DNA of 64,000 nt from an uncultured Pelagibacteraceae bacterium. GTDB lineage: Bacteria > Pseudomonadota > Alphaproteobacteria > Pelagibacterales > Pelagibacteraceae. The translations under genes and the position numbers were made by a program. The notes below the pieces were generated by a model, which was not told where the DNA came from, made no database searches, and saw nothing but the letters and a program-made list of their open reading frames with translations. The stretch is taken from assembly GCA_902586485.1 (NCBI GenBank), contig CACIHO010000002.1:1-64000 (forward strand), read 5' to 3'. Below are positions 12,324 through 47,153 of this stretch, piece by piece. Within the stretch, counting starts at the first letter, position 1, and each line of letters opens with the position of its first letter.

Positions 12324-13478
12324 ATGATCAAATTAACTAAAATTATTTATTTAATTATATTAAGTTTTTACTTTCTGTTTTTTCCAAATGTTAATGCTAA
12401 AGAAAAAATCAAAATAGGATTATTGGTACCTATGACAGGAGAAAATAAGGAGATTGGAGAGTCAATAATTAAAGCAGTTGGATTAGCGGTCAAAGATATA
12501 AATAATGATCTTATAGAAATCTATCCAAAAGATACCGCAACTAAAGCTAACCAAACTTTAAAATCAGCATTTGAATTAAGTGAAATGGGTATAAATGTTG
12601 TTATCGGTCCAGTATTTTATAAAAGTTTAACTTATTTAGATGAAATGAAAGAATTAACCTTTTTATCATTAACAAATAAAACTTTAGATCTTCCAAAAAA
12701 TGTAATCTCTGCTGGAATTAATTCTACATCACAATTTAATACAATAAAAAAATTTTTAGAAACTAATCAAATACAAAGAACTATTTTTTTAACACCAATC
12801 CAAGATTATGAATTTGAAGTTAAAAGAGGAATGAAAAATTCAAAAATTAAAATTTATAAAGATTATGAGTATAATATAGAGCCTACAAAACTAACAAAAC
12901 AGATAGAAGAAATTACAAACTACAGAATAAGAAAGCAAAATTTAGAGGATGAAATAAAAAGGATAAAAAATTCAAATGATCCAAATAAAGAAAAAAAAAT
13001 AAAAAGACTTGAAAAAAGATATACTTTGGGTGGTTTAAATTTTGAAGCTGTCGTAATTGCAGATTTTGATGAAAGTCTAAAAAGTGTATCTACATCACTT
13101 TTATATACTGACGTTCTTCCTAAAAATAAATATTTTATAACTTTAAATCAGTGGTTTGATGAAAGTCTATTAAACGAAACTGATATTCAGCCATTATATT
13201 ATCCATCAATAAATAAAGAAAATTTTGATAGCTACAAAATAAAATATTTTAACGCATTTAATGAAGACCCTACACACTTGTCTCTATTAAGTTACGATCT
13301 TGTTGGCTTGGTATATTATTTATCAATAAATTCAAATTCAGAAAACCTAAATAAAATTTTTAAAAGAAAAAACTCATTCAAAGGGAAAATTGGAATTTTT
13401 GATATAAAAAATAATGAAATAAATCATAGACTTAATTTTTATAAAATCGAGGATCAAAAACTTATAGAAATTTTCTAA
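12324..13478 (+). CDS. LpoA-like periplasmic protein (penicillin-binding protein activator family)
   Basis: A 384-residue protein with a Sec signal peptide (hydrophobic residues about 7-22, likely cleavage after NVNA at about residue 25) and a type I periplasmic-binding-protein fold. IGLLVPMTGENKEIGESI is the usual first strand/helix of such domains. A charged Lys/Glu-rich insertion spans about residues 195-235. Divergent pairing with rsmI matches the E. coli rsmI(yraL)-lpoA(yraM) arrangement and suggests activation of peptidoglycan synthases. There is no lipobox cysteine and no N-terminal TPR domain, so it is not a classical LpoA lipoprotein. A branched-chain amino-acid-binding protein is the alternative, but no transporter genes are near. 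Confidence 0.7.
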   Translation: MIKLTKIIYLIILSFYFLFFPNVNAKEKIKIGLLVPMTGENKEIGESIIKAVGLAVKDINNDLIEIYPKDTATKANQTLKSAFELSEMGINVVIGPVFYKSLTYLDEMKELTFLSLTNKTLDLPKNVISAGINSTSQFNTIKKFLETNQIQRTIFLTPIQDYEFEVKRGMKNSKIKIYKDYEYNIEPTKLTKQIEEITNYRIRKQNLEDEIKRIKNSNDPNKEKKIKRLEKRYTLGGLNFEAVVIADFDESLKSVSTSLLYTDVLPKNKYFITLNQWFDESLLNETDIQPLYYPSINKENFDSYKIKYFNAFNEDPTHLSLLSYDLVGLVYYLSINSNSENLNKIFKRKNSFKGKIGIFDIKNNEINHRLNFYKIEDQKLIEIF

Positions 13479-14064
13479 TTTTTTTAAAAGCTTGATGTCT
13501 ATGATCCATCTTGTATTTTTGAGACGGCCTCATTTGTCCAAAAGTTTTTGTTTTTTTTAAAGGAATAAAAATTGGATCATAACCAAATCCATTCTTTCCT
13601 TTTGGTTTATCTGAAATATGACCTTCAATTTTTCCTAGTACACATGCAATTTTTTGATTTAAATATGAAATAGACAACGCGCAAATAAATCTTGCTTTAA
13701 TTTTTTTATTTTTCCAATTTTTATCTTTTTTATTAAGCTCTCTGTAAACTTTTCTGATAGCTTTACTAAAATCTCCCTGCCTTCCTCCCCACCTTGCTGA
13801 ATAAATACCAGGATTTTTATTTAAAAAATCTATCTCTAGGCCCGAGTCATCAGCCAAACAAATTAACCCTGTTTTTTTTGAAAAATATTTGGACTTTATT
13901 AATGAATTTTCTTTAAATGTCTTTCCATTTTCAACTGGACTTTTAAGATTAAATTTGGATGTAGAATAAATTTTAATATTTTTTGGCAATAAACTCTTGA
14001 TTTCACGTAATTTACCACTGTTATTAGTGCCAATAAGTAATTTATTAATTTTTTGTTTATACAT
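13462..14064 (-). CDS. rdgB: XTP/dITP diphosphatase (RdgB/HAM1)
   Basis: A 200-residue nucleotide-sanitising pyrophosphatase. Motifs are LLIGTNNSGKLREIKSLL near residue 9, CLADDSGLEIDFLN near 69, PGIYSARWGG near 84, and GKNGFGYDPIFIP near 155. It hydrolyses ITP, dITP and XTP to monophosphates, preventing incorporation of deaminated purines. It is a single gene transcribed toward the LpoA-like gene with a 17-bp tail-to-tail overlap, and divergent from grpE; the grpE promoter lies in the 36-bp gap. Confidence 0.95.
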   Translation of the reverse strand: MYKQKINKLLIGTNNSGKLREIKSLLPKNIKIYSTSKFNLKSPVENGKTFKENSLIKSKYFSKKTGLICLADDSGLEIDFLNKNPGIYSARWGGRQGDFSKAIRKVYRELNKKDKNWKNKKIKARFICALSISYLNQKIACVLGKIEGHISDKPKGKNGFGYDPIFIPLKKTKTFGQMRPSQKYKMDHRHQAFKKIRKFL

Positions 14065-14092
14065 CTAGAAATTAACAAAATGCTTACCATAT
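14065..14092 (+). promoter_or_regulatory. Sigma-32 (RpoH)-like promoter of grpE
   Basis: A -35-like CTAGAAA at 14065-14071 and a -10-like ACCATAT at 14086-14092 are separated so that 17 bases follow CTAG. The same spacing and bases (CTTG-N17-ACCAT) occur before hslV, and a relative occurs before dnaK. The predicted transcription start (about 14099) falls within two bases of the grpE ATG, which would make the message leaderless. The assignment rests on motif similarity; no transcript data. Confidence 0.5.
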
Positions 14093-14100
14093 AAGAGACT

Positions 14101-14754
14101 ATGGAAAAAGAAGAAAACCAAAATAGCACTTCTGCAGATCAAAACCAGGATTCTGTAAAAGAAAATGATAAACCTCAAGAAAATTTAGCCGAAGAAAATA
14201 AACAAGAAATAGAGCAAGAGGCTAAAGAAGAAATTAAAGAACCTACTCCAGAAGAAAAAATTGCTGAACTAGAAGACAAAGTAGCAAGAACTTTTGCTGA
14301 AATGGAAAATCAAAGAAGAAGGTTTGAAAAAGAAAAAGAAGATGCTTTTGAATATGGTGGCTATAGTTTTGCTAAAGAAGCATTAAGTTTGATTGATAAC
14401 TTAGATCGATCAAAACATGTTCTTGAAAGTGACGATAAATTAAAAGAAACAGAAGCATTAAAAAAAACACTAGAACATTTGGACATTATTAAAAAAGATC
14501 TAATCTCAATTTTTGAAAAAAATAACATTAAACCAATTGATAGCCTTAACAAAAAACTAGATCCAAACTTTCATCAAGCAATGATGGAAATAGAGGATGA
14601 TACGAAAGAACCTGGAACAATAATCCAGGAAATTCAGAAAGGCTTTACTATAAAAGACAGATTGCTTAGACCCTCACTTGTAGGAGTGTCAAAAAAAGTT
14701 ACAACAAAAGAGGAAAAAACTAAGGAAAATCAGGAAAATCCAGAGAATAAATAA
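14101..14754 (+). CDS. grpE: GrpE nucleotide-exchange factor of DnaK
   Basis: A 217-residue GrpE. A long acidic Glu/Gln/Asn-rich N-terminal tail (about residues 1-55) precedes the coiled-coil ELEDKVARTFAEMENQRRRFEKEKE and the C-terminal beta-domain with DPNFHQAMMEIEDD and GFTIKDRLLRPSLVGVSKK. It releases ADP from DnaK. It leads the grpE-dnaK-dnaJ group; no hrcA repressor gene or CIRCE-type inverted repeat is seen upstream. The ATG has no visible ribosome-binding site, consistent with a leaderless or very short leader. Confidence 0.96.
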   Translation: MEKEENQNSTSADQNQDSVKENDKPQENLAEENKQEIEQEAKEEIKEPTPEEKIAELEDKVARTFAEMENQRRRFEKEKEDAFEYGGYSFAKEALSLIDNLDRSKHVLESDDKLKETEALKKTLEHLDIIKKDLISIFEKNNIKPIDSLNKKLDPNFHQAMMEIEDDTKEPGTIIQEIQKGFTIKDRLLRPSLVGVSKKVTTKEEKTKENQENPENK

Positions 14755-14766
14755 TTATGAGATCAA

Positions 14767-14794
14767 CTTGTAGTTTCACATTTAAGCATTATAT
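14767..14794 (+). promoter_or_regulatory. Sigma-32-like promoter of dnaK
   Basis: CTTG at 14767-14770, a 17-base spacer, then ATTATAT at 14788-14794. This fits the alphaproteobacterial RpoH pattern CTTG-N17/18-CYTATNT with one change and aligns with the grpE and hslV promoters. It allows dnaK-dnaJ transcription separate from grpE. A good ribosome-binding site (AAGGAGAG, 14799-14806) follows, so the leader would be only about 16 nt. Confidence 0.5.
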
Positions 14795-14816
14795 GACGAA
14801 GGAGAGACATTAAATT

Positions 14817-16742
14817 ATGAGTAAGATTATTGGAATAGACCTAGGAACAACAAATTCATGTGTTGCTATCATGGAGGGAACACAAGCTAAAGTATTAGAA
14901 AATGCTGAGGGAGCAAGAACTACTCCATCAGTTGTAGCATTTACAGATGAAAATGAAAAATTAATTGGACAACCAGCAAAAAGACAGGCTGTTACAAATC
15001 CAGAAAACACTATCTTTGCTGTTAAAAGATTAATTGGGAGAAATTTTGATGATCCAACTGTAAAAAAAGATGTGGAAGCTGCACCTTTTAAAATTATTAA
15101 TTCTGAAAAAGGCGATGCTTGGATTGAAGCTAAAGGTGAAAAATATTCGCCATCTCAAATATCTGCATTTATTTTACAAAAAATGAAAGAAACTGCAGAA
15201 AAATATTTAGGTCAAGCGGTAACTAAAGCTGTAATTACAGTGCCAGCATATTTTAACGATGCACAAAGACAAGCAACAAAAGATGCAGGAAAAATTGCTG
15301 GACTAGAGGTTTTAAGAATTATTAATGAACCAACTGCAGCGTCACTTGCATATGGTTTAGATAAAAAACAAAATAAAAAAATTGCTGTTTATGACTTGGG
15401 TGGTGGAACATTTGATGTTTCAATCTTAGAACTAGGTGACGGTGTTTTTGAAGTTAAATCAACTAATGGTGATACTTTTTTAGGTGGTGAAGATTTTGAC
15501 AATGCTGTTGTTGATTACTTAATTTCTGAATTTAAGAAAGATAATGGAATTGATCTTAAGTCAGACAAACTTGCTTTACAAAGATTAAAAGAAGCTGCTG
15601 AAAAGGCAAAAATAGAATTATCATCTGCGGAACAGACAGATATAAACTTACCTTTTATTACAGCGGATAAAACAGGTCCAAAGCATATTAATTTAAAAAT
15701 GACTAGAGCAAAACTTGAAGCTTTAGTTGAGGACCTGATTGCTAAAACAATGCCTCCATGTAAAACTGCATTAAAAGACGCGGGAATAACTGCTAGTGAA
15801 ATCGATGAAGTTGTAATGGTTGGTGGTATGACTAGAATGCCTAAAGTATTAGAGGAAGTTAAAAACTTTTTTGGCAAAGATCCTAACAAAAGTGTAAACC
15901 CAGATGAAGTAGTTGCAATGGGTGCTGCAATTCAAGCCGGTGTATTACAAGGTGATGTAAAAGATGTTCTTCTATTAGATGTTACTCCATTATCATTAGG
16001 AATTGAAACACTTGGTGGAGTTTCAACAAAACTAATTGATAAAAACACAACTATTCCAACAAAAAAAAGTCAGGTATTTTCAACTGCTGAGGATAACCAG
16101 CCAGCTGTATCTATTAGAGTTCTACAAGGTGAGAGAGAAATGGCAGCTGACAATAAAGCCTTGGGTAATTTTGAATTAGTGGGTATTGCGCCAGCACCAA
16201 GAGGTGTGCCTCAAATTGAAGTTACATTTGATATTGATGCTAACGGAATTGTGAACGTTTCAGCGAAAGATAAGGGCACTGGTAAAGAACAAAAAATTCA
16301 AATTCAAGCATCGGGCGGTTTAAGCGATGAAGAGATCGAGAAAATGGTTAAAGATGCTGAAGCTAATAAAGAAGCAGATAAAAAGAAAAGAGAGTCGGTT
16401 GATGTTAGAAACCAAGCAGATACTTTAATTCACTCTACTGAAAAGAATTTAAAAGAGCATGGATCAAAAATTTCAGATGCAGAGAAAAAAGCAATTGAAG
16501 ATTCTTCAAGTGCTGTAAAAGAGGCTTTAAAAGGCGAAGATATAGAAGATATTAAGAAGAAAACTGAAGCTTTAGTTCAAGCTTCAATGAAACTTGGAGA
16601 AGCAATATATAAATCACAACAAAGTACAAAGCCTGAGTCTGGAAAAGACGATGGTGAAGATGATTCAGGTAAAAAAGACGAGAATGTTGTTGATGCTGAT
16701 TTCGAAGAAGTGAAAGACGAGAATAAAGAAAAAAGCGCTTAA
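14817..16742 (+). CDS. dnaK: Hsp70 chaperone DnaK
   Basis: A 641-residue Hsp70. Phosphate-binding motifs are [17 protein letters not shown] at residue 4 and [13 protein letters not shown] near 195; the interdomain linker is [12 protein letters not shown] near 387. The substrate domain is followed by a helical lid and an acidic tail ending [16 protein letters not shown], similar to the EEVKD ending of E. coli DnaK. It works with DnaJ and GrpE in ATP-driven folding in the cytoplasm. It has a strong ribosome-binding site 11-12 bases before the ATG. Confidence 0.99.
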
Positions 16743-45240: not shown

Positions 45241-46603
45241 ATTTTGAAAGATCTGTATCTTTAACGAGATTATCTAAGTTTTTATTTATATATTCTTTGT
45301 TAATAATAATCTTTTCCCCTGCTCTATCTGTGGCTGTAAAGCTTATTTCATCTAATATTTTTTCGATGATAGTATGTAACCTTCTAGCACCTATATTTTC
45401 AACAGTTGTGTTTACCTCTGAAGCAATATTGGCTATTGCATCTATCCCATCTTCTGAAAATTCAAGATCAACATTTTCGGTTTTCAATAAAGCCACATAT
45501 TGCTTGATTAAGCTGAAATCAGGTTCTCTTAAAATTCTTTTAAAATCATCACTAGTTAAAGCCTCAAGCTCAACTCTAATCGGTAATCTTCCTTGTAATT
45601 CAGGTAACAGATCAGATGGCTTTGCAAGCTGAAAGGCACCTGATGCAATAAATAAAATATGATCTGTTTTTATTGGACCATGTTTAGTGTTTACTGTAGT
45701 TCCTTCAATTAAAGGTAATAAATCTCTTTGAACACCTTCCCTTGAAACATCTCCGCCAACTCTATCTGTTCTTGCAGAAATTTTGTCAATCTCGTCTAAA
45801 AATACAATTCCATTGTTTTCAGTAGAAAGTTTTGCTGCCTTAATTATTTTATCTTGTTCAATTAACTTATCCGATTCGTCATTTATTAAAATTTCATGAG
45901 ATTCTTTCACTGTCATTTTTTTCTTTTTTTCTTTATTGCCCATAGATTTTCCAATCATTTCACCAATGTTGATCATTCCAACATTAGCTCCAGGCATACC
46001 AGGAATCTCAAAAGAGGCACCACTTGAGCCAGTATCACTAACTGCTATTTCTATTTCATTATCGTCTAAATCACCATTTCTTAATCTTTTTCTAAAACTT
46101 TCTCTTGTAGCTAAACTTGCTTTTTTACCAACTAAAGCATCTAAAACTTTTTCTTCAGCTGCTTTTTGAGCTTGTGCAAAAACTTCTTTTCTTTTTTTGA
46201 CCTTTTCCATTGAAATAGCAATTTCAATTAAATCTCTAACTATTTGTTCAACATCTCTTCCTACATATCCAACTTCAGTAAATCTTGTAGCTTCAACTTT
46301 TACAAAAGGTGCCTCTGCTAGTTTTGATAATCTTCTAGAGATTTCAGTTTTTCCAACACCAGTTGGCCCAATCATTAAAATATTTTTTGGCAAAACTTCA
46401 TTTTTCATTTCACCTTTTAGAGCTTGTCTTCTCCATCTATTTCTTAAAGCAACCGCTACAGCTCTTTTTGCTTTATTTTGACCAACAACAAATCTATCTA
46501 ACTCTGAGACTATTTCTCTAGGAGATAGGGAGCTTACTAATGAAGCCTCTTCTTTTTGATTTTTATCTTTTGGATGTAGTTGTGTTACGTTTGAATTATC
46601 CAT
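45230..46603 (-). CDS. hslU: ATP-dependent protease ATPase subunit HslU (ClpY)
   Basis: A 457-residue AAA+ unfoldase. Walker A is GPTGVGKT (79-86), Walker [10 protein letters not shown], and the intermediate domain (about 115-245) includes a Gly/Met-rich stretch [16 protein letters not shown]. The C-terminus ends DLSKFIL, the tail that docks into HslV. It unfolds substrates for HslV. ATG overlaps the hslV stop by 1 base. Confidence 0.98.
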
Positions 46604-47118
46604 TATATTTTTTCAATTTTAACATTATCGTTTGTGAAAACACATATATCAGCAGCAACTTTAATAGCTTTTTTAGCAACTTCTTCGGCAGACATATTAC
46701 CTTCCATTAAAACTTTTCCAGCTGCAAGAGCGTAATTACCACCTGAACCTATTCCAATTACATCACCTTCAGGCTCCAAAACATCGCCAGTTCCAGAAAT
46801 AATATAGCTGTTATTTTTGTCACCAACAGCCATTAACGCCTCTAATCTTCTTAAATATTTATCAGTTCGCCAGTCTTTTGCTAATTCAACAGCAGCTCTG
46901 GATAAATTCCCAGCATGCTTTTCTAATTTTCCCTCTAATCTTTCAAATAGGGTTAATGCATCAGCAGTAGATCCTGCAAAACCTGCTACCACATCTCTTT
47001 TTTCAATTTTTCTAACTTTTGAAGCAGTGCTTTTAACAACAGTATTTCCCATACTAACTTGCCCATCTCCAGCAACGACTACTTCATTATTTTTCCTAAC
47101 TAATACAATTGTTGTCAT
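46603..47118 (-). CDS. hslV: ATP-dependent protease peptidase subunit HslV (ClpQ)
   Basis: A 171-residue proteasome-like peptidase. It begins [22 protein letters not shown]; after Met removal the catalytic nucleophile is the N-terminal Thr. [15 protein letters not shown] is the Na+/structural loop. It forms HslVU with the adjacent ATPase. A sigma-32-like promoter lies directly before the ATG, consistent with heat-shock control. Confidence 0.98.
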
Positions 47119-47124
47119 ACCTAA

Positions 47125-47153
47125 TAAATGGTAACTATTTTTGATACTTCAAG
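47125..47153 (-). promoter_or_regulatory. Sigma-32-like promoter of hslVU
   Basis: On the minus strand CTTGAAG begins at 47153 and ACCATTTA covers 47132-47125, with 17 bases between CTTG and ACCATT. This is close to the E. coli heat-shock consensus (CTTGAA ... CCCCATTTA) and to the grpE promoter here. The last promoter base is 6 bases before the hslV ATG, implying an almost leaderless message. Confidence 0.6.

Follow-up and report, generated by a model that had tools for sequence, protein, structure and literature searches.

In other alphaproteobacteria, grpE is placed under heat-shock regulation through hrcA-grpE and CIRCE control. The locus described here would likewise place grpE under heat-shock control, but HrcA was found in 0 of 61 genomes of the source genus, with the control search positive in Caulobacter and six others. 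For S. meliloti, the RpoH1 promoter consensus is given as CTTGAA-N15-16-CCTATAT, and in the sections of that source available to us it does not specify how far the promoter lies from the start codon (PMC4843759). In the same species, promoters were sought 5-12 nt before mapped transcription starts, and 171 leaderless transcripts, all beginning with AUG, were mapped by RNA-seq; the available part of that report does not present them as an RpoH class (PMC3616915). A heat-shock message almost without a leader is described, in the excerpt of the source at hand, for hsp70 of Natrinema sp. J7, the mRNA of which carries four nucleotides before the start codon (PMC4574771), although this organism is an archaeon with transcription machinery unlike that of SAR11. 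SAR11 bacteria are reported, in the portion of the article that we could draw on, to have sigma-32 and sigma-70 as their only sigma factors (PMC13198564). Within the open-access literature, neither a SAR11 transcription-start map nor leaderless RpoH genes in SAR11 were found among the matches listed; likewise limited to that literature and those matches, the arrangement reported below combines known ingredients in a way not found in print.

The window (the whole 64,000-nt stretch of DNA that was analysed) carries two divergent genes, rdgB (Ham1 / XTP pyrophosphatase; 13462..14064, minus strand) and grpE (14101..14754, plus strand; Pfam GrpE, 1.2e-41), the starts of which are separated by 36 bases. 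On the plus strand these bases comprise CTAG at 14065-14068, 17 bases, ACCATAT at 14086-14092 and AAGAGACT, and are followed by the grpE ATG at 14101. The preliminary description had placed CTAG-N17-ACCATAT directly before the ATG; the motif is present at 14065-14092, with eight bases between the site and the start codon. We read the stretch as CTAG-N18-CCATAT-N8-ATG, with a putative RpoH-type -35 core (14065..14068), an 18-nt spacer consisting of the N17 plus the A (14069..14086), a -10 core (14087..14092) and an 8-nt gap (14093..14100). Written as CTAGAA-N15-ACCATAT, the grpE site agrees with the published part of the S. meliloti RpoH1 consensus seen by us at 10 of the 13 specified positions and has an allowed spacing, differing in the -35 by an A where CTTG has T, and in the -10 at two positions, with CCAT in place of CTAT; on the same footing, the groES promoter lies nearer to that consensus than the grpE promoter does. 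RpoH is encoded in the source genome (contig C7; TIGR02392 score 364 bits, cut-off 323). The curated cut-off was exceeded in 46 of the 61 genus genomes, including the source genome, many of them being incomplete, and the weaker TIGR02392 matches lay mostly in RpoD-sized open frames.

We gathered 115 grpE loci from the genus: 30 representing the best 30 of 101 matching genomes, the best 80 of 476 candidates from a named collection, and five more. All 80 kept loci from that collection are titled Pelagibacteraceae and thus belong to SAR11, bacteria that abound in the ocean. One locus ends at a contig edge, leaving 114 readable loci with 88 distinct sequences; some genomes are represented twice and the orthologues are related, so that locus counts here and below are not independent of one another. 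CT(A/G)G-N18-CCATAT-N7/8-ATG was present in 114/114 readable loci, while the bases of the gap varied, and the site thus proved to be kept in orthologous intergenic regions, the comparison on which the preliminary description had staked its proposal. The -35 core was CTAG in 108 loci and CTGG in six, each one position off CTTG; the spacer was 18 nt and the -10 core CCATAT in every locus (114/114), and the gap was 8 nt in 109 loci and 7 nt in five. The gap carried 0.57 bits of information per position, compared with 2.00 for the -10 core, 1.91 for the -35 core and 1.46 for the spacer (0.90 for the third bases of early grpE codons). Together with the two gap lengths of 7 and 8 nt, the value of 0.57 bits implies that the length of the gap is held and its sequence is not. 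The first in-frame start after the -10 core was ATG in 80 of 81 distinct loci, the remaining one having a GTG at gap 2 and an ATG at gap 8. A Shine-Dalgarno reading of AAGAG/GAGG in the gap was rejected, as these bases lie too near the ATG and are not kept in other lineages; the GA-rich gaps of the source clade were not kept in other clades.

An RpoH polymerase bound at CTAG-N18-CCATAT would be expected to initiate on the first base of the grpE start codon, or no more than about three bases ahead of it, which would render the grpE mRNA leaderless or nearly so. With the +1 predicted 6-9 nt past CCATAT, initiation would fall at 14098-14101 and leave a leader of 0 to about 3 nt. The short distance proposed in the preliminary description therefore holds as a prediction, with its range of about two bases from the ATG widened to 0 to about 3 nt. 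Both the recognition of this site by RpoH and the exact start base are what we infer from its promoter elements, from the fixed spacing to the ATG and from conservation, which together support a sigma-32-type promoter at a leaderless or near-leaderless distance. As in the S. meliloti leaderless transcripts, also from an alphaproteobacterium, the start codon would contain the first nucleotide; there the starts were mapped by RNA-seq, whereas those of grpE and hslV are predicted. grpE begins with ATG, and its message would carry no Shine-Dalgarno sequence just before it, the predicted leader of no more than about 3 nt being too short for one. This absence is ordinary and by itself no argument for stress-specific translation, such as the reading by 70S ribosomes under stress that the preliminary description put forward as speculation, since in stretches of three genomes a Shine-Dalgarno core was found on only 10-16% of the genes that come first in a transcription unit (2-6% in a control stretch). 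In the minimum-energy fold of the predicted grpE message the first 28 bases are unpaired, but the fold is no more or less stable than its base composition would lead one to expect (z -0.49); the start of the hslV message is partly paired in its predicted fold, so that an open 5' end is not common to the two. A pyrimidine occupied position -1 in 82 of 88 distinct grpE sequences, but was rejected as proof of an initiator signature because the leadered dnaK has T there in 90/93. A search for RNA thermometers and further Rfam elements, applied at gathering threshold to the window and to the hsp20 and groES loci, returned only a tRNA.

The hslV gene (46603..47118, minus strand) is preceded by a comparable RpoH-type promoter, CTTGAA-N16-CCATTT (47126..47153), in which CTTG at 47153-47150 is followed by N17, ACCATTT ending at 47126, a 7-nt gap (47119..47125) and the ATG at 47118. 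The start codon is supported by TIGR03692, to which residues 2-171 align at model positions 1-171, so that residue 2 meets the first model position. We read 51 genus loci, composed of the best 30 and 20 among the most diverged of 106 matching genomes, plus one. CTTG-N18-CCA was present in 51/51, the hexamer conforming to CCA(T/C)NT, and the resemblance between the hslV and grpE promoters asserted at the outset is borne out by CTTG-N18-CCATTT-N7-ATG. Among 38 distinct sequences the gap was 7 nt in every case (38/38), and the hexamer was CCATTT in 27, CCATCT in six, CCACCT in three, and CCACTT and CCATGT in one each. Of 23 genomes searched, 21 yielded hslV, and in the other two, both of g3, it was not found (related genera are designated g2 to g6). 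NTTGAA-N16-CCACAT was present in all 19 loci outside the genus (19/19), at a gap of 8 in g5 and g6, 9 in g2, 9-10 in a second family of the order and 26-29 in g4; the gap was thus 8-10 nt in 16/19, and in g2 a TTG is also present at gap 3. HslV starts with Met-Thr in the source genus, whereas the proteins of the other genera have a longer N-terminal stretch ahead of the corresponding position. The start codon has accordingly moved relative to the protein and still lies 7-10 nt from the promoter, except in g4; the promoter is thus tied to the ATG and not to the protein. This pattern is hard to explain unless the promoter-to-ATG distance of hslV is under selection.

To the extent that sequence patterns can define further members, two more genes appear to be served by this architecture. 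In 10 genomes, CTTGAA-N16-CYAYNT-N6-9-ATG yielded 12 matches, against one for the reversed control: 10 at the hslV start (one per genome), one at actR/regA (G135) and one inside a longer open frame. We then read 31 loci of actR/regA, which encodes a redox response regulator; they are mostly the best 30 of a homologue search, with identity assigned by NF033791. (A/C)TTG-N18-hexamer-N7-ATG was present in 30/31 and the other locus had a gap of 8; including a further copy in G012 with a gap of 10, the gap was 7 in 30/32. The hexamer was CCATAT in 26 loci at the 7-nt register and CTATAT in the source genome, where the gene lies at G000:C2:179256-179851 (L330:15256-15851) in the same arrangement as grpE and hslV. 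These observations make actR/regA a newly recognised candidate RpoH target with the short gap. lon also appears to share the arrangement, in two genomes only: ATTGCA-N16-CCATAT-N7-ATG precedes it in both genomes where it was found (2/2), namely G131 (L430:6690-9103; TIGR00763), in which an alternative in-frame ATG lies 3 nt earlier (gap 4), and G123 (C1, near 539054; L361-L362). Of the synteny-predicted places searched for lon in G012, G125, G131, G135 and G137, only that in G131 contained the gene.

The loose motif CTNG-N17-ANNAT, offered in the preliminary description as a search pattern, turned out to be uninformative: the window contains 45 matches against 38.2 expected, and 18 of 100 shuffles reached 45, so we rejected it as evidence by itself. 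A stricter pattern with an ATG 5-10 nt past CCATNT gave 11 matches across the source genome (G000; 1.07 Mb, 31 contigs, 79% complete), against three for the reversed-pattern control; grpE and hslV aside, the other nine of the 11 lay within open frames or on the strand opposite to them, and none marked the start of a gene. When NT(T/A/G)G-N18-CCA(T/C)(A/C/T)T was placed before new ORF starts in 2.06 Mb, comprising stretches of seven genomes, matches occurred at gap 7 (hslV, lon, lon), 8 (grpE), 10 (regA) and 4 (the lon ATG of the alternative start); all remaining gaps between 0 and 40 gave none. With a looser -10, 11 matches fell at gap 7, compared with 1.6 on average for the gaps apart from 7 and 8, and four of the 11 were genes already named; other matches at gap 7 or 8 (sufB-like, ferredoxin-like, lpxB-like and others, named by reading) are single cases and are not claimed. 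A position-weight scan of 1.26 Mb for further RpoH-like sites gave no clear excess over shuffles at four thresholds (10 vs 11.4 at threshold 16; 4 vs 2.0 at 18). The grpE/hslV arrangement is far above chance by its conservation across relatives, not by motif frequency.

The short gap is not shared by all heat-shock genes. The arrangement, which the preliminary description proposed to look for in all SAR11 heat-shock genes, is not general among them, as dnaK, groES and hsp20 have leaders. dnaK (14817..16742, plus strand; Pfam HSP70) has its own RpoH-like promoter, CTTG-N18-TTATAT (14767..14794, plus strand), 22 nt before its ATG and conserved in the genus, in which the YTATAT-to-ATG gap was 14-24 nt among 94 distinct sequences. 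As this promoter lies directly after grpE (14767-14816), grpE and dnaK need not share one transcript. groES is preceded in the genus by CTTG-N18/19-(C/T)TATATGA and by AGGAG-like sequences, with a YTATAT-to-ATG gap of 24-37 nt (28 distinct sequences from 30 loci). In the source genome the CTTG-N18-CCATAT of hsp20 is separated from the start codon by a 62-nt leader that includes AAAGGAGGA, showing that the -10 type does not force leaderless placement. This gene (L103:992-1438, G000:C24; Pfam HSP20) has a perfect CTTGAA-N16-CCATAT and a strong Shine-Dalgarno sequence in its leader. Within the source genus the -35 core is CTAG/CTGG for grpE, against CTTG for groES, hslV and hsp20.

Overall, we consider it likely that an RpoH-type promoter between rdgB and grpE gives rise to a leaderless or near-leaderless grpE mRNA, in an architecture shared with hslV, regA and, in two genomes, lon. 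The RpoH-like promoter set would then have one arm with the short gap and another, comprising dnaK, groES and hsp20, with leaders. We put forward only tentatively, and with less than even confidence, that the Pelagibacterales RpoH regulon is split by promoter placement, with leaderless grpE, hslV, lon and actR/regA (CCA(T/C)NT held 7-8 nt before the ATG) and leadered dnaK, groES and hsp20 translated by different routes, and with RpoH also driving RegA. If so, stress could, with no extra regulator, change the amounts of proteases and exchange factor relative to those of chaperones, and two of the few regulators in these cells would be wired together. Two RpoH-like promoter architectures conserved in one genus make a sharp prediction on 5' ends and provide a natural example where stress-protein ratios may be set by leader length as well as by promoter strength.

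Leaderless placement might instead be a genome-wide habit of SAR11, in which heat-shock genes would not be special, a reading that we regard as possible but doubtful. Genes that come first in a transcription unit show a TANNNT peak ending 6 nt before the ATG (45 vs a background of 23 per offset), but operon-internal genes show the same peak (36 vs 17), so that an in-frame-stop artefact accounts for it, at least partly, and the -10/ATG distance test was rejected as proof of general leaderless transcription. The leaders of dnaK and groES also argue against such a habit; rdgB, which itself looks leaderless, fits it. The rdgB start codon abuts the grpE -35 core in 83 of 88 distinct genus sequences. 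A candidate rdgB -10, GTTAAT (14071..14076, minus strand; 4/6 to TATAAT), ends 6 nt before the rdgB ATG, inside the grpE spacer, the divergent promoters sharing the 36 bp. When the match to TATAAT was scored over offsets 2-19 upstream of the rdgB ATG, the peak offset, which is exactly the one expected of a -10 that directs initiation at the ATG, had a mean of 4.43/6, with 40/83 sequences scoring at least 5; the next best offset had a mean of 3.73 (14/83). No -35 matching this candidate was seen, and the candidate is absent from the list of a simple sigma-70 scan. The rdgB promoter is probably RpoD-type and also leaderless, and both genes of the 36-bp gap may thus be leaderless. Given the overlap, two polymerases would probably be unable to bind together, making mutual exclusion of the rdgB and grpE promoters plausible.

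It is also conceivable, though we judge it unlikely, that the grpE promoter is real and the message nevertheless leadered, starting at least four bases upstream or mainly from another promoter, with the short gap a product of genome compaction. The rdgB-grpE space is indeed tiny at 36 bp, and in S. meliloti, according to the part of the report available, RpoH starts were sought 5-12 nt past the promoter (PMC3616915). The hslV upstream intergenic space, however, is 89 bp, so shortness is not forced, and gaps fixed at 7-8 nt (grpE) and 7 nt (hslV) contrast with the longer, variable ones that dnaK and groES show within the genus. When 13900-14900 was scanned for simple sigma-70 promoters, the scan returned no plus-strand site before 14597, and hence none in 13900-14100 that could serve as an upstream promoter. 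Beyond the genus, the grpE gap is 7 in g6 and about 7-10 in g5 (by eye; 3 of 7 g5 loci measured), and g2 has ATGs at gaps 3 and 21. Compaction draws some support from the leaders found in g3 and g4: the grpE gap is 43-44 nt in g3 and 26-27 nt in g4 and, with g4 hslV at 26-29 nt, shows that the short-gap arrangement is not obligatory.

That the conserved block serves another regulator or RpoD is improbable still, for although CTAG is palindromic, one position off CTTG and abutting rdgB, and the RpoH site is assigned by sequence, the grpE spacing and -10 type are those of hslV, the -35 at the homologous place is CTTG in the related genera g2 and g4, CCATAT matches TATAAT poorly, and RpoH is, in the available portion of the source, the only reported SAR11 sigma besides sigma-70 (PMC13198564).

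The related lineages also provided several observations in their own right. Neither grpE nor hslV has the short gap in g4 (L258-L260, L284, L287, L288), where each is leadered with a gap of about 26-29 nt. In g3 (L256, L257) a short ATG reading frame (ATGACAAAAAAATTATAA in L256) begins right after the grpE -10, ahead of the 43-44 nt gap. The second family of the order mostly has another conserved block ahead of grpE, TTGACG...CATTACATA, and its members differ in the gap, which is about 8 in some and greater in others. This block (L224-L253, of which L226 ends at a contig edge) is strongly conserved and resembles TATTGACGAAAATAATATAGATCATTACATA.
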